From Herbidospora yilanensis (GTDB taxonomy: Bacteria; Actinomycetota; Actinomycetes; Streptosporangiales; Streptosporangiaceae), in NCBI RefSeq assembly GCF_001570565.1, contig NZ_BBXE01000027.1:40006-104005 (forward strand): a DNA stretch of 64,000 nt, in the 5' to 3' direction. The position numbers and the translations under genes were made by a program. Below the pieces are notes generated by a model. It searched no databases and was not told the DNA's origin. It was given only the letters and a program-made list of their open reading frames with translations. Below, piece by piece: positions 2,388-16,577 of the stretch (the stretch's first letter is position 1; each line of letters starts with the position of its first letter).

Positions 2388-3065
2388 TCACGCGGCGTGA
2401 GCGTGCGGGCTCACGGCCTCGGACGTGGCGTTTTGGGTCGGCTCGGCAACGGGCTGACGGACGACTCCCGGAACTGTAGTGATCACGGTCATGAGCCCGA
2501 CTCGCAGAAGCTGCCAGGCGATCGAGGCCACCAGCATGAACTCGACGACCAGCAGACCACGCTCGGCCGCGCCGATCAGCATGCCCCGGCCGGGCAGCGC
2601 CGCGTAGGTGACGGCGGCCAGGCCGAGACCCGCCAGCAGGGTCAGCCATTCGAGCGTGCGGGCCACCGGCCGCCACTCGTCGTGGTCGCCGAACCGGCCG
2701 GCGAGTTGCGCGGTCGCGACGGGCAGCGCCAGGAACGCGACCGCCACGAGGTAGTCCTGCGCGCGTGCCCACGGGATCACGGCGACGCCGAGCAGGGTGA
2801 GGGACCAGAGGAGGATCAACCGCTCGGGCCAGCCGTCGATCGGCGCCGCGGCGGCCTTCAGCCCGGCGAGCAGGGCCAGGGAGGCCAGGCCCAGCATCGC
2901 GAGGGCGAACTCGGTCAGCACGCCGCGCTCCTGGGCGGCGTACTCGCTGATCGACAGCGCGACCGGGTCGAGGTGGGGGGAGGGATCAAGCTGACCGGCC
3001 ACGACGGCGGCCATCGCGAGCACCAGACCGGAGATCGCGATCACGGGAGAGAGCCTCTTGACCAT
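2388..3065 (-). CDS. DUF998 family integral membrane protein
   Basis: This protein of about 225 residues is almost entirely hydrophobic, with six likely membrane helices, and has the DUF998 pattern: first helix (LSPVIAISGLVLAMAAVVAG), then a short extracytoplasmic loop with SISEYAAQERGVLTEFA, then further helices. DUF998 proteins are widespread bacterial membrane proteins without an established biochemical role. I place the start at the ATG at 3065 (MVKRL), just before the first helix; an in-frame ATG at 3101 would add 12 basic residues and cannot be excluded, since neither has a strong ribosome binding site. The gene lies upstream of the sensor kinase on the same strand, separated by the hairpin at 2311-2340. 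Confidence 0.75.
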   Translation of the reverse strand: MVKRLSPVIAISGLVLAMAAVVAGQLDPSPHLDPVALSISEYAAQERGVLTEFALAMLGLASLALLAGLKAAAAPIDGWPERLILLWSLTLLGVAVIPWARAQDYLVAVAFLALPVATAQLAGRFGDHDEWRPVARTLEWLTLLAGLGLAAVTYAALPGRGMLIGAAERGLLVVEFMLVASIAWQLLRVGLMTVITTVPGVVRQPVAEPTQNATSEAVSPHAHAA

Positions 3066-3163
3066 ACTTCGAGAGTGCCTCTTCGGCCGCCGGATATGCA
3101 TCCGGTTAAGACCCCATTCGCCCCTGATGCATTCCCCCTAGGGGAGCTCAGGGTCGCCCCAGG

Positions 3164-4559: not shown

Positions 4560-5701
4560 TACCGCACGCCGAGCAGGTGCTCGAGGGCGAGCTGCGACAG
4601 GCGGGTGAAGTGGAAGCCCTGGGCCGCCACGCCGTCGAGGTCGAACTCGTCGTTCAGCAGGTCCTGGAGGGTCTCGCCCTCGCCGAGGGTGCGGGCGCCC
4701 AGCTCGTCGACCTTGCTGGCGGCCAGCGCCTCCTGGACCTCCGGGTCGGCCCGGTAGGCCTTGGCCTTCTCCTTGAGGATCAGGTAGGTGCGCATGTTCG
4801 CCGCGACCGAGTCCCAGGCGTCCTGCTTGTCGTCGGTCCGGACCGGCTTGTAGTCGAAGTGGCGGGGGCCCTCGTAGCCGCCGTGCTCCAGCAGGTCGAC
4901 CAGGAAGAACGCGTTCTGCACGTCGCCGTGACCGAAGATGAGGTCCTGGTCGTACTTGATGCCGCGCTGCCCGTTGAGGTCGAGGTGGAACAGCTTGCCG
5001 TGCCACAGCGCCTGCGAGATGGCGTGGAAGTAGTTCAGGCCGGCCATCTGCTCGTGACCGGTCTCGGGGTTGAGGCCGACCATCTCGGGGTGCTCAAGCT
5101 CGTTGATGAACGCCAGCGCGTGGCCCACGGTCGGGAGCAGGATGTCGCCGCGGGGCTCGTTCGGCTTGGGCTCGATCGCGAAGCGGATGTCGTAGCCCTT
5201 GTCGATGACGTACTGGCTCAGGATGTCCATGGCCTCCTTGTAACGGGAGAGCGCGGCGCGGATGTCCTTGGCGGCGTCGGACTCGGAGCCCTCGCGGCCA
5301 CCCCAGCAGACGTAGGTCTTGGCGCCCAGCTCGGCCGCGAGGTCGAGGTTGCGGATCACCTTGCGGATGGCGTAACGGCGGATCTCGCGGTTGTTGCTGG
5401 TGAAGCCGCCGTCCTTGAACACCGGGTGGGTGAACAGGTTGGTGGTCGCCATGGGCACCTTGAGACCGGTGTCGGCCAGGGCCTTCTTGAAGTTCTCGAT
5501 CGCCCTGTCACGGTCGGGCTCCACGGCGAGCAGGTCGTCGTCGTGGAAGGTCACGCCATAGGCCCCGAGCTCGGCCAGTTTGTGCACGGTCTCGACCGGG
5601 TCGAGCGGGGCACGGGTCGCGTCACCGAACTGGTCGCGCGCCTGCCAGCCGACGGTCCACAGGCCGAATGTGAATTTGTCCTCGGGTGAGGGGGTGTACA
5701 C
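4559..5701 (-). CDS. xylA: Xylose isomerase
   Basis: This 380-residue TIM-barrel enzyme interconverts D-xylose and D-xylulose (and glucose/fructose) in the cytoplasm using two divalent metal ions. It starts [19 protein letters not shown], the usual opening of actinomycete xylose isomerases. Catalytic H53 and D56 lie in VTFHDDDL. The metal ligands appear as E177, E213, H216, D241, D251, D253 and D283, with the catalytic lysine K179 in IEPKPNEP. I choose the GTG at 5701 because GGAGG lies six bases upstream and the resulting N-terminus matches the family; an in-frame ATG at 5764 would add 21 unconserved residues. It is the first gene of the xylAB operon, divergent from the repressor. Confidence 0.96.
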
Positions 5702-12820: not shown

Positions 12821-14626
12821 ATGCCAGCGAGGAGCGGACCCGACACGGCGATGGTCGCGGCGGCACGCGACGGGGATCAGGCTGCCCTCGACCGCCTGGT
12901 CGCCGACTCGTTGCCGCTGGTCTACAACATCGTCGGCCGGGCGCTGAACGGGCACAACGACACCGACGACGTCGTCCAGGAGACCCTGATCCGGATGGTC
13001 CGCGGGCTGCCGGGGCTGCGCGACCTCGACGCCTACCGGTCATGGCTGGTGGCCATCGCGGTGCGGCAGGTACGCGACCACGAAGCCGAGAAGCGCACCG
13101 CCCAGCACCGCCGGACCGATCTCGACACGGCGACCGAGGTGGCCGACCCCGCGTCCGACTTCGCCGGGCTGACCATCCTCCAACTCGGGCTGACCGACCA
13201 GCGGCGCGAGGTCGCCGAGGCGACCCGCTGGCTCGACCCCGACGACCGGGCGCTGTTGTCGTTGTGGTGGCTGGAGGAGACCGGGGAGCTCGGGCGGGCC
13301 GACCTGGCGTCGTCGCTCGGGTTGTCGGCCAAGCACGCGGCCGTGCGGGTGCAGCGCATGAAGGAGCAGATCCAGATCGCGCAGTCGGTCGTGCGCTGCC
13401 TGAACGCGCAGGCCCAGTGCCCCGAACTGCGGGGCATGTTCCTGGGCTGGGACGGGGTGCCCTCGCCCTTGTGGCGCAAACGGTTCGCCCGGCACATCCG
13501 GGGGTGTACGTTCTGCGGCCGCCGCACCCAGGGCATGGTCCCCCTGGAGCGGCTGCTGCTCGGGCTGCCCCTGGTGGCGGTGCCGGCCGGGTTCATGCTG
13601 ACCAAGCTCGTGCCGGTCACGGTCAAGGCGACGGCCGTGGCGGCCAAGAACGTCTGGATCCCCCTCACGGCCGCGGGCGCGGCGGCGGTGACGGCCGGGG
13701 TGTTCGTCCTGCAACCCTGGACGAGCGCCGCGCCGCCGAAACCCATCGCCGTTCCACCACCCATGGTGGTCACCGAGAGCGCGTCGCCGGCGAAGACGCC
13801 CGCCCGCGAGACGAGCCCGAGCCCGTCGCCGAAACCGTCGAAGAAGCCCTCGCCCAAACCGTCGAAGAGCCCCGAGCCGCCCGCCGCCCCCGCCGTGAAG
13901 AAGGGCGTCGGGGTGTGGCCGATGAACGGGGTCAGCAACTCCCTGGCCAAGTCGGGGGCACGCTGGTACTACACCTGGGCGACCCACCAGAACGGCGTGC
14001 GGACCCCGCGGAACGTGGAGTTCGTCCCGATGATCTGGGGCGCCGACAGCGTCACGCCGCAGGCGCTGGCGGAGGCCAGGAAGGCGGGGCCGTACCTGCT
14101 GAGCTTCAACGAGCCCGACCTGGCCCAGCAGTCGAACATGACCGTCGAACGCGCGCTGGAGTTGTGGCCGCGACTGGAGAAGGCCGGGAAGATCCTCGGC
14201 TCCCCCGGCGTGGCCTTCGGCGGCGACACCCCCGGCGGCTGGCTCGACCGCTTCATGAAGGGCGCCAAGGAGAGGGGCTACCGCGTCGACTTCGTCACCC
14301 TGCACTGGTACGGCGGCGACTTCCGCGCCGCCGCCGCGACGCAGCAGCTCAAGAGCTATCTCCAGAACGTCTGGCAGCGCTACGGGAAGCCGATCTGGCT
14401 GACCGAGTACGCCCTGATCGACTTCTCCGACGGCGCCCGCTACGCCTCGGACGCCGAACAGGCCGCCTTCCTCGCCGCCTCGTCGAAGATGCTCGCGTCA
14501 CTGCCCTATGTGCAGCGGTACGCGTGGTTCGGCCTCCCCGCCAAGGAGGCCGAACCCAACAGCGGTCTGTTCACCGAGGACGGCGTCGCGACCCGGGCCG
14601 GCAAGGCGTTCCAGCAGGCCCGCTAG
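12821..14626 (+). CDS. Membrane-anchored ECF sigma factor with extracellular GH128-type domain
   Basis: This 601-residue protein is a chimera. Residues 1-190 are an ECF sigma factor: sigma2 (DTDDVVQETLIRMVRGL), then sigma4 (LASSLGLSAKHAAVRVQRM). A zinc-finger-like H-x3-C-x2-C motif (HIRGCTFC, 225-232) follows, as in anti-sigma domains. Hydrophobic segments lie at 245-264 and 280-298. A Ser/Pro/Lys linker (about 320-357) leads to a GH128 (Glyco_hydro_cc) domain at 362-601, with catalytic-type glutamates E431 in SFNEPD and E529 in LTEYA. Family knowledge: actinobacterial ECF groups with membrane extensions exist. Inference: a cell-wall or glucan signal seen outside could control the tethered sigma part. 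GAAGGGG precedes the ATG at 12821. It is convergent with the TROVE gene (4-base overlap). Confidence 0.88.
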   Translation: MPARSGPDTAMVAAARDGDQAALDRLVADSLPLVYNIVGRALNGHNDTDDVVQETLIRMVRGLPGLRDLDAYRSWLVAIAVRQVRDHEAEKRTAQHRRTDLDTATEVADPASDFAGLTILQLGLTDQRREVAEATRWLDPDDRALLSLWWLEETGELGRADLASSLGLSAKHAAVRVQRMKEQIQIAQSVVRCLNAQAQCPELRGMFLGWDGVPSPLWRKRFARHIRGCTFCGRRTQGMVPLERLLLGLPLVAVPAGFMLTKLVPVTVKATAVAAKNVWIPLTAAGAAAVTAGVFVLQPWTSAAPPKPIAVPPPMVVTESASPAKTPARETSPSPSPKPSKKPSPKPSKSPEPPAAPAVKKGVGVWPMNGVSNSLAKSGARWYYTWATHQNGVRTPRNVEFVPMIWGADSVTPQALAEARKAGPYLLSFNEPDLAQQSNMTVERALELWPRLEKAGKILGSPGVAFGGDTPGGWLDRFMKGAKERGYRVDFVTLHWYGGDFRAAAATQQLKSYLQNVWQRYGKPIWLTEYALIDFSDGARYASDAEQAAFLAASSKMLASLPYVQRYAWFGLPAKEAEPNSGLFTEDGVATRAGKAFQQAR

Positions 14627-16230
14627 CGCACGAAGCCGTTCACGATCAGCGGCAGCGACGCGTCGAGGCCGGCCACGTTGAGCGCGTTCGGGTCGTCGTG
14701 GTCGACGATCGAGTAGCCGGCCGCCGTCATGGCGGCCACGACCACCCGGGCGTCGCGGTTGACCGTCTTGCGATAGCGCGCCAGCGCGTCGGCCGGCGCG
14801 CCCCGGCCCGCCCACGTCTCGTTGTCGGTGAAGACGACGACGCCGTCCACGTTCATGCGCTCGCCGAGCAGGTGCTTGAACGGCAGCGACAGGTCGGTGC
14901 CGCCGCCCGACGCCCGCCACTTGGCGATGTCGCGGAGGTTGGTCCGCGCGGTCACCTTCGAGGCGTGCACCTTCGTGTCGACCTCGATGGCGTGCACGTT
15001 GCCCTTCTCGATGCGCGCCAGCATGACCGCCATGGCCGAGCCGACCTCGTAGGGCGTGCCGACGGGCGAGCCGCCGACCACACACTGCGCGTACGTCATC
15101 GAGCCCGACGAGTCGACCGCGAGCAGCAACCTCTTGCCGGTGGGCTCGACGAAGCCGAACGACTTCTCGTACGCCTCCTCCAGCGCGTCGAGGATCGCCG
15201 GGACCGGCGTCCACGTCGCGCCATTGCGGCCCTGGCCCGAGGCGTAGACGCGCATCGCCAGCCACACGTCCAGCGGGTGGATGCGCGCCTTTCGGAGCTG
15301 GTGGAAGGCGGTGAGCCGGGCGACCGCGCGCCGGGTGGCGTCGCCAAGCGGCACGAGCGTGCCGACGCGGGTCATCCGGGCGAGGTTGCGCAGCAGCGCG
15401 GTCAGGCCGATGGTGTCGACGAGGTGGTCCCAGACCTTCGGCTCGGTCAGCATCGCGTCGGGCAGGAACTCCCACGGCACGTCGAGCCGGGTCGCCTCCT
15501 CGACCGTGGTGACGGCCTTGGCGGTGAGGAACCGGTCGACCGAGGGCAGCGCCGCGCGGGCCGCGTCGTCGTCCACGTTGCCGGCGATCCAGCCGAACAG
15601 CACCTTGCGCTGGTCGGTGTCGCCCGCCGGGTGGGCCATCCGCAACACGTCGCGCAGCGCGAACGACTCACCCGACGGGGTCCTGCGCTGACCGGCCTTG
15701 CAGACCTTGAACGCCACGTCGTCGGCCTCGCCCTGCAGGAACCAGGAGCCGAGTGCCGACCGCAACGAGCGGCCCATCACGGGGGCGGTGCCCCGCGAGG
15801 TCCGCTTGCCGCCGAGGTTCTTGTAGTAGCCGAAGAAGGTCGCGAGGTGGTCGGTGGTGCGGGCGACCTTGGGCAGCGCCGACTTGGCGGCCCGGCGGGT
15901 CGCCTCGTCACCGCGCGCGTACGCCGCCGCGAGGGCGAACAGGGCGGGCCGGTTCTTGGGGGCGCGGGGCGGCCGGGCGGTGGAGATCTCGGTGAGCATC
16001 TCGACCACGCGCGGGCCGTCGGTGTGCAGCGCCTTGTAGAGGACGCCGACGTTGATCTCGGTCAGCTTGCCGCCGTCGACGTAGTAGGTGCCGCCGGTCG
16101 TGCCGAGAATCAGGAAGTCCTCGACCCGCTGCCACAGGTCCTTCTCGTACACGACGCCGCCGGCGGCGTCGCGCACCTTCTTCGCGCCGATCTCGGAGAC
16201 GTCGGCGAGGGGGTCACGAATGTCGTTCAC
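14623..16230 (-). CDS. rsr: TROVE-domain Ro60 orthologue (Rsr)
   Basis: This 535-residue protein has an N-terminal TROVE HEAT-repeat ring domain (about 10-360) and a C-terminal von Willebrand A domain with the MIDAS motif AVDSSGSM and later VVFTDNETW. Ro60 proteins are ring-shaped and bind misfolded RNAs and Y RNAs; in bacteria they work with polynucleotide phosphorylase or other exonucleases in RNA quality control and stress recovery. The GTG at 16230 has GGAGG seven bases upstream. Two tandem tRNA-mimicking RNAs lie directly upstream on the same strand, with the last ending only about 24 bases before this start, exactly the genomic context reported for bacterial Y RNAs. The 3' end overlaps the sigma-GH128 gene by four bases. 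Confidence 0.94.
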   Translation of the reverse strand: MNDIRDPLADVSEIGAKKVRDAAGGVVYEKDLWQRVEDFLILGTTGGTYYVDGGKLTEINVGVLYKALHTDGPRVVEMLTEISTARPPRAPKNRPALFALAAAYARGDEATRRAAKSALPKVARTTDHLATFFGYYKNLGGKRTSRGTAPVMGRSLRSALGSWFLQGEADDVAFKVCKAGQRRTPSGESFALRDVLRMAHPAGDTDQRKVLFGWIAGNVDDDAARAALPSVDRFLTAKAVTTVEEATRLDVPWEFLPDAMLTEPKVWDHLVDTIGLTALLRNLARMTRVGTLVPLGDATRRAVARLTAFHQLRKARIHPLDVWLAMRVYASGQGRNGATWTPVPAILDALEEAYEKSFGFVEPTGKRLLLAVDSSGSMTYAQCVVGGSPVGTPYEVGSAMAVMLARIEKGNVHAIEVDTKVHASKVTARTNLRDIAKWRASGGGTDLSLPFKHLLGERMNVDGVVVFTDNETWAGRGAPADALARYRKTVNRDARVVVAAMTAAGYSIVDHDDPNALNVAGLDASLPLIVNGFVR

Positions 16231-16253: not shown

Positions 16254-16385
16254 GGGACGGATATGGGTGCGCCGACCGATGTCGCGGTGCTCTGCCATTT
16301 GAGCTAGAGCTCGATTTCTCGAACCCGCGGGATTCGAACCCGCAACCGCCGCGTTAGAGGTAACCGACCGACTTCGACCCGTCCC
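16254..16385 (-). ncRNA. YrlA-type Y RNA B (permuted tRNA mimic)
   Basis: GGGACGG (16385-16379) pairs perfectly with CCGTCCC (16260-16254), closing an RNA of about 132 nt; TTTT follows at once. Next to the closing helix is GTCGAAG, resembling the conserved Ro-binding strand of bacterial Y RNAs. Inside, GTCG-gt-CGGT pairs with ACCG-CGAC (16288-16281). Then come, in permuted order, a T arm (GCGGG, loop TTCGAAT, CCCGC; 16343-16327) and an acceptor-like stem GGGTTCGA/TCGAGCTC capped by a GAAA tetraloop (16318-16315). TA and a D arm follow (GCTC, loop AAATGGCA with GG, GAGC; 16304-16289). A small hairpin GTTA/TAAC replaces the anticodon arm. This is a tRNA cut open between D and anticodon arms and closed at the acceptor end. 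Confidence 0.85.
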
Positions 16386-16397
16386 GCGCCGGCCCGG

Positions 16398-16539
16398 GAA
16401 TGGCGCGGATATGGCATGTCAACCGGTATAAGCGCTCTGGCCGCTGAGCTACCGGGGCAGGTGGCTCCCCGGGCGGGATTCGAACCCGCGACCTCTCGAT
16501 CCGAAGTCGATAACCGATTGTCTTCGACCCGCGCCATTC
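16398..16539 (-). ncRNA. YrlA-type Y RNA A (permuted tRNA mimic with anticodon-like arm)
   Basis: GAATGGCGCGG (16539-16529) pairs perfectly with CCGCGCCATTC (16408-16398), closing about 142 nt. GTCGAAG (16528-16522) follows as in RNA B. CAATCGGT (16520-16513) pairs with ACCGGTTG (16427-16420). Between them lie a hairpin TCGA-CTTCGGA-TCGA (16510-16496), looking like an anticodon arm with a 7-base loop. Next are a T arm (GCGGG, TTCGAAT, CCCGC; 16489-16473), an acceptor-like stem CCGGGG/CCCCGG (16472-16467 and 16457-16452) joined by the loop AGCCACCTG, then TA and a D arm (GCTC, AGCGGCCA, GAGC; 16449-16434). Both RNAs share CCATATCCG near the 3' end. The order T arm-acceptor-D arm rules out a normal tRNA gene. 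A promoter lies just upstream. Confidence 0.86.
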
Positions 16540-16547
16540 GCGAACCG

Positions 16548-16577
16548 ACGTTAAAGACGGTACAGATCGGCGTTCAA
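16548..16577 (-). promoter_or_regulatory. Sigma70-type promoter for the Y RNAs
   Basis: On the minus strand TTGAAC (16577-16572) and TAACGT (16553-16548) are separated by 18 bases and match -35 and TAnnnT -10 hexamers. The predicted start, about 7 bases further on, falls at 16541-16539, exactly where the closing stem of RNA A begins. There is no other gene start nearby on this strand, so the promoter supports the RNA 5' end. Confidence 0.65.

Follow-up and report, generated by a model that had tools for sequence, protein, structure and literature searches.

Two short segments in tandem directly upstream of a Ro60 gene in Herbidospora yilanensis raise the question of what kind of RNA they encode and whether Ro60 is its partner. 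In the window, by which we mean the whole 64-kb stretch of DNA that was analyzed, the sequence-only reading had described two RNAs in a row with the order T arm, acceptor-like stem, TA and D arm, whose ends are joined by perfect closing helices of 11 bp and 7 bp. This anatomy was confirmed in both copies on the minus strand. Copy 1 (16398..16539), which is distal from the gene, rests on its 11-bp closing helix, a YrlA match and covariation, and copy 2 (16254..16385), which is proximal, on its 7-bp closing helix and a YrlA match. As read from the sequence, the closing helix of copy 1 pairs 16529-16539 with 16398-16408 (GAATGGCGCGG/CCGCGCCATTC), and that of copy 2 pairs 16379-16385 with 16254-16260 (GGGACGG/CCGTCCC). 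The tRNA-like module of copy 1 (16434..16489, minus strand) consists of a T arm (16473-16489), an acceptor-like hairpin (16452-16472), TA and a D arm (16434-16449); that of copy 2 (16289..16343, minus strand) has the same parts at 16327-16343, 16307-16326 and 16289-16304. The acceptor-like hairpin forms 7 of 8 pairs in copy 1 and 8 of 8 in copy 2, with G-U pairs counted. GTCGAAG, which had been noticed beside the closing helix, and CCATATCCG flank this helix in both copies. A putative Ro60-docking motif, CGAAG-N5-CGGUUA, lies at 16511..16526 in copy 1 and at 16361..16376 in copy 2 and is near-invariant in an alignment of 54 sequences, while CCATATCCG, the 3' partner strand of the docking stem (16406..16414 and 16258..16266), has a core that is invariant in the same alignment; all four lie on the minus strand. 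Eight nucleotides before the closing helix of copy 1, a possible promoter, TTGAAC-N18-TAACGT (16548..16577, minus strand), was recognized by eye, and it recurs in six Herbidospora loci, some with base changes. A sigma-70 scan did not call it, and neither a promoter nor a terminator was called by the scan at the pair.

The gene beside the pair is rsr, a Ro60 orthologue (14623..16230, minus strand) of 535 aa with TROVE and vWA domains. Its product matches the Pfam families TROVE (68 bits) and vWA_Ro60 (127 bits) as well as the PDB chains of Rsr (2nvo, E 3.2e-68), 60-kDa SS-A/Ro (1yvp, E 2.4e-66) and RO60 (9nen, E 1.5e-63), and residues 13-535 align with Rsr. Thus, the TROVE protein that had been proposed at this place is indeed Rsr/Ro60. 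The NCBIfam Rsr equivalog model matches at 313 bits, which is below its cut-off of 900. The nearest fetched relatives are Herbidospora proteins with 90-96% identity. This is the sole TROVE gene found in the genome, and its listed GTG start lies 23 nt after the closing helix of copy 2. Convergent with rsr, at 12821-14626 on the plus strand, one open reading frame fuses sigma-70 region 2 with a glycosyl hydrolase catalytic core (PF11790).

Several analyses revealed that the permuted fold is real. A scan for the T-acceptor-TA-D pattern on both strands of the window found only these two places, also with relaxed settings. The motif CGAAG-N4-8-CGGTTA, a pattern picked after the copies had been seen, occurs twice, whereas 0.07 occurrences are expected. 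Folded as single sequences, the copies stand out only moderately (z −2.86 and −1.88; opposite strand −1.58 and −1.19). Covariation was analyzed in the 54-sequence alignment (A2), which, like the covariance model R1, includes both window copies. A2 holds 54 of 60 candidates, as six with early-cut 3' ends were left out; the 60 had been picked from 96 scanner matches by part of the docking motif, and the invariance of this motif is therefore partly a result of selection. Double changes were found in 23 of 36 pairs of this alignment, which supports the permuted arms. Its paired cells amount to 97.1%, compared with 78.4% in shuffled and 37-46% in slid alignments, and none of 500 shuffles reached the observed value on any of five covariation measures. 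R1 scores copy 1 at 131.6 bits and copy 2 at 116.3 bits, although both sit in its own alignment.

To which class do the two RNAs belong? The earlier proposal was two YrlA-type Y RNAs, to be checked with the YrlA covariance model. This search was run, and YrlA is the best Rfam match of both copy 1 (36.3 bits, E 2.2e-5, span 16402-16517) and copy 2 (33.3 bits, E 1.6e-4, span 16285-16351), though both fall short of the gathering score of 69 (RF02553), and this large gap counts against the explanation that we prefer. Weak Rfam matches to group-II-D1D4-4, tRNA-Sec and MIR1437 were set aside, as they are below their own cut-offs. The copies do not qualify as ordinary tRNAs: with the Rfam tRNA model they score 20.8 and 19.2 bits, where the cut-off is 29, and ARAGORN called no tRNA at either copy. 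The YrlA assignment is thus borne out by anatomy, best Rfam match, position and co-occurrence with TROVE, but not by the gathering score. Because both RNAs are below that score, they are a divergent subtype, YrlA-like rather than members of RF02553. In other words, the window holds a real pair that is a divergent member of an already known kind.

Comparison with known systems is consistent with this. Like YrlA of Salmonella and Mycobacterium smegmatis, the window RNAs carry a T arm, a closed acceptor-like hairpin, TA and a D arm on an end-joining stem, and thus have the module that marks the YrlA subtype. They also adjoin rsr, and several Y RNAs per rsr are known from Salmonella, where excerpts of PMC7790460 give the operon order rsr-yrlBA-rtcBA. 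They differ from YrlA not only in score but also in being located upstream of and near rsr in most relatives, and in loci that reach three longer units plus one short unit. With the Deinococcus radiodurans Y RNA (RF01053) and its RYPER complex they share the docking motif CGAAG..CGGUUA, a T-arm-like hairpin in the consensus and, presumably, Rsr as partner; the overall sequence is different, and the RF01053 model (cut-off 80) gives just 17.4 bits for one relative (L091) of the window RNAs. In A2, the stem is near-invariant in its 5' strand at CGGGUCGAAG..CGGUUA and in its 3' strand at CCGG..CAYAUCCG, and the 5' motif of the window also occurs in the RF01053 consensus (CCgaAGuGGuCaCGGUUaC). Both RNA ends form, as in Y RNAs, a stem with a conserved, putative Ro60 site, as judged from covariation and from the motif common to RF01053. 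Going by its sequence, this shared stem is likely the Ro60 dock. Bacterial Y RNAs have been reported to be separate RNAs, to whose lower stem Rsr binds (PMC4726728, in excerpt).

Taken together, it is very likely that the window RNAs are two tandem YrlA-type Y RNAs before rsr, probably co-transcribed, each with an Rsr-binding docking stem and a permuted module. The putative docking stem consists of the closing helix, an internal loop GUCGAAG/CAUAU and an inner UCGG/CCGG helix, and Ro60/Rsr is predicted to bind this stem in each RNA. The far end of each RNA carries the permuted T arm, the closed acceptor-like hairpin and the D arm, with the anticodon arm absent. In published excerpts, the tRNA-like domain of YrlA is modified by TruB and DusA, and in RYPER a Y RNA tethers Rsr to PNPase (PMC8394870). 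By analogy, the RNA docked on Rsr might offer a tRNA elbow to another factor; the module could tether or gate this factor, PNPase if D. radiodurans RYPER is a guide, and Rsr might thereby feed structured RNA to a nuclease. Since copy 2 ends just 23 nt before the rsr start, feedback is also proposed, in which Rsr on its own leader could limit rsr translation or direct leader processing.

The sequence-only reading regarded one pair per Ro60 gene as worthy of note. We examined this in 51 fetched TROVE loci (L071-L121), with two R1 matches below 31 bits left out of the counts. At least one R1 match lies within 700 nt upstream in 47 of the 51, the match at L087 being weak and overlapping the gene, so that being encoded beside an rsr/TROVE gene, as Y RNAs are, holds for the relatives too. 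At least two matches are present at 44 loci and four at 12, and three or more units remain at 21 of the 51 after removal of a DUF7873-type unit at L083. All six Herbidospora loci have exactly two. Together with the Salmonella operon, this shows that a Y RNA pair is normal in this group, and the pair is not remarkable in itself. In addition, R1 matches of at most 95 nt occur in 27 of the 51 loci (e.g., L084:2364-2441); the 18 short units whose sequences were printed are 74-83 nt long and keep the docking stem, and the tRNA module is absent. This indicates that the stem and the tRNA-like module are separable, and fits the prediction of a modular dock.

The RNA and the protein are also inherited together. 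Among 150 family genomes, in which the searches for TROVE, DUF7873, R1 and R3 (a model of a second RNA class, below) were taken as one set by agreeing genome labels, 65 have both R1 (E<=1e-8) and TROVE, 79 have neither, 4 have TROVE only and 2 have the RNA only. R1 and TROVE thus agree in 144 of 150, the RNA being found in 65 of 69 TROVE-positive and in 2 of 81 TROVE-negative genomes; at least four of the 150 had supplied sequences to R1. The four TROVE-positive genomes that lack an R1 match at this threshold count against the preferred explanation. Most of the loci L011-L040, from other family lineages, also carry permuted RNAs linked with TROVE; their docking sequence is another one (CCCGGUGCGCAGG..CGGUUACUUC / ..UGAUCUCGGG) and mostly has just CGGUUA in common with the window type.

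Could the pair instead be a purely cis-acting leader of rsr, an attenuator or translational switch with no separate RNA? The short distance between copy 2 and the start codon fits this, and in 41 of 47 loci the nearest unit lies 20-74 nt away from the protein match. However, the number of units (one to four) and their spacing differ among TROVE loci. The nearest unit is 186 nt away at L111 and 405 nt away at L109, and the matches at L118 lie behind the gene; a tight leader is therefore not universal, which also weighs against the preferred explanation. As bacterial Y RNAs are moreover known as separate Rsr-bound RNAs, we regard a purely cis-acting leader as improbable, although the window RNAs may have an additional cis role on rsr. 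Still less probable is that they are true circularly permuted tRNA genes, whose products would be spliced and circularised to tRNAs that decode, as happens in certain algae and archaea. Permuted tRNA genes exist (PMC3978253 and PMC3218864) and the arm order matches theirs, but the consensus fold has an end-joining stem without an anticodon arm, its docking sequence is near-invariant, and the same stem is retained in the short units that lack T and D arms.

Besides the window pair, the YrlA search of the same genome found a second tandem pair, at C39:33004-33103 (20.0 bits) and C39:33144-33243 (38.4 bits), also below the gathering score; no tRNA was called there. The gene that precedes it encodes a DUF7873 protein (PF25283, 389 bits), so that this locus (L006:699-1740 on C39) consists of a DUF7873 gene followed by two tandem permuted tRNA-like RNAs. 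The 29 aligned downstream regions of DUF7873 genes (A1, i.e., 29 of 30 family loci, with L058 left out) fold into a composite of ~370 nt, in which two permuted units, A and B, stand on long interrupted stems and are followed by a 3' hairpin. Double changes occur in 60 of 107 pairs of the composite, a raw count without shuffling. In the unit alignments (A3 with 27 and A4 with 25 of the 29), unit B has double changes in 27 of 37 pairs, and none of 500 shuffles is as high; unit A has them in 10 of 27 pairs, and one of its five measures does not exceed the shuffles (109 of 500). Like the window pair, this RNA has two tandem permuted T-acceptor-D units on long stems; it differs in the stems themselves, in its position 3' of a DUF7873 gene, in the absence of the Ro60 docking motif from the composite, and in its occurrence in phages and in 12 genomes without detectable Ro60. 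R1 and R2 scores separate the Ro60-linked from the DUF7873-linked class (R2 models unit B, and R3 unit A).

The link between DUF7873 and its RNA is tight. R3 matches of at least 58 bits were found in 46 of the 150 family genomes, which are exactly the 46 with a full DUF7873, and 104 have neither; the 58-bit line was drawn after the scores had been seen, with the next match at 49.0 bits and 55 of the 150 genomes matching at E<=1e-5. The nine genomes between these thresholds have no full DUF7873, and their best R3 match is at most 43.0 bits. Of 49 genomes with a reported DUF7873, 46 count as "full"; the other three are G073 and G102, where the match has 21 bits, and G048, where a weak R3 match (38.8 bits) overlaps with a DUF7873 match that is broken and 38 codons long. 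Sequences for R3 came from 25 of the 46 genomes and not from the other 21. TROVE is absent by the family search from 12 of the 46, where a protein search found no credible match either (best E 0.13), and R1, which matches 67 genomes, matches none of these 12. In a phylum sample of 346 genomes, DUF7873 was found in six, and R2 matches of at least 70 bits in the same six, five of which are outside the R2 model. R2 also gave weaker matches (42-51 bits), in three genomes of this sample that lack DUF7873 and, as the second match of the genome, in two that have it; L170, L171 and L172 were examined, and those of G342, G387 and the second match of G310 were left out. L171, the other weak match of G172, holds two TROVE-type units (R1 81.2 and 59.0 bits). 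In G121, the Y-RNA array and gene of Ro60 follow immediately after the DUF7873 cassette.

The other two of these weak matches bear on whether tandem or decayed ordinary tRNA genes explain the window, since the 3' half of one and the 5' half of the next would mimic the T-acceptor-D order. This artefact is real: L170 (G172; 2968-3119) and L172 (second match of G277; 2583-2734), with R2 scores of 50 and 51 bits, are each a pair of neighbouring tRNA-Asn genes that share their anticodon; they were rejected as units, and such gene pairs are a trap for pattern and model searches of the permuted order. Yet at the window units ARAGORN calls no tRNA, and the closing helices and docking stem covary and are not tRNA parts. 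The ARAGORN searches covered every family DUF7873 locus (30) and every TROVE locus (51), 25 of the 28 viral loci (all except L128, L131 and L145) and 10 of the 11 phage or plasmid loci (all except L159), and the calls overlap a unit just at L043 (2270-2360) and, as the one case among the TROVE loci, at L096 (2643-2721). This excludes imitation by tandem tRNAs at nearly all units run, and the tandem-tRNA reading of the window pair, to which we give next to no weight, is largely refuted. Just as little weight goes to the idea that the window RNAs serve the DUF7873 system of this genome instead of Ro60: both RNA classes are present here and have the permuted module in common, but R2 gives 149.3 bits for the DUF7873-linked units of L083 and L173 compared with 43.3 for the window and at most 54.1 for other scanned TROVE loci, R1 gives at most 50.0 bits on DUF7873-linked units, and 34 of the 150 genomes have R1-type RNA without strong R3-type RNA.

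The DUF7873 system extends to viruses. DUF7873 matches 73 of 50,697 phage records, among them phages of Vibrio, Gordonia, Rhizobium, Klebsiella, Serratia, Arthrobacter, Pseudanabaena, Rhodococcus and Microcoleus. At 28 viral-contig loci, which contain three near-copy pairs, the scanner found a unit just 3' of DUF7873 in 22, and scanner or R2/R3 (E<=0.01) found one near DUF7873 in 24. Some results run counter to this link: in L130 and L131 no unit was detected 3' of the DUF7873 gene, L145 ends 119 nt past it, and L134 has a strong DUF7873-type RNA cassette (4931-5255) on the strand opposite the gene, ~1.2 kb away. The protein alignment A5 holds 24 of the 28 viral DUF7873 proteins; left out were L132 (internal stop) and L128, L131 and L138 (duplicates of L127, L130 and L139). 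At L132:3001-3726, the DUF7873 frame with one early internal stop is followed 3' by two permuted units. Eleven phage or plasmid loci were examined, ten from the 73 phage records and one from the four plasmids. Of these 11, 10 have at least one unit by scanner, and five phages have two; the scanner found none in phage L159. R2 or R3 (E<=0.01) agrees at 9 of these 10, the Vibrio phage unit (L162) being found by scanner only; L155 and L129 are the same phage. As a control, the scanner gave 2 matches in 162,400 nt of upstream strand. None of the examined phage or plasmid units is annotated as RNA, and those of L155, L157 and L162 overlap with predicted genes. tRNA arrays enclose the cassette in GodonK and some others; many viral loci have no tRNA. 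Rhodococcus phage NiceHouse (L156:1501-3729) carries DUF7873, two permuted units, tRNA-Lys and then a Band-7-like membrane protein; Band-7 proteins are linked with Ro/Y RNA systems. Some jumbo phages have a TROVE protein, whose partner in cells is tRNA-like (PMC7824862, in excerpt).

From these results, we consider it fairly likely that permuted tRNA mimicry extends beyond Ro60, and that DUF7873 and the ~370-nt two-module RNA form a second, Ro60-independent RNP in actinobacteria and in phages of actinobacteria, proteobacteria and cyanobacteria, encoded in some of these phages inside tRNA arrays. Binding of the DUF7873 protein to its RNA, and a function as RNP, are proposed here; the RNP may act on tRNA metabolism, e.g., as a tether or decoy for tRNA-elbow-binding enzymes. 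DUF7873 had no match in PHROGs, NCBIfam or PADLOC, and none in the PDB by profile. The DUF7873-linked RNA class is apparently undescribed and is the surprising part, found by following the window pair; its link with DUF7873 was not found in titles and abstracts among the literature matches listed and may be in print elsewhere.

In summary, the window pair widens the Rsr-linked YrlA RNAs to an actinobacterial subtype that is missed by the Rfam cut-off and has a clean modular docking stem. More important is DUF7873, a second protein family inherited with permuted tRNA-like RNAs, including in genomes without detectable Ro60 and in phages. If this is true, it would give the unnamed family DUF7873 a partner and a first functional clue, and the role of a tRNA elbow without an anticodon would become testable in tractable phages such as Gordonia phage GodonK.
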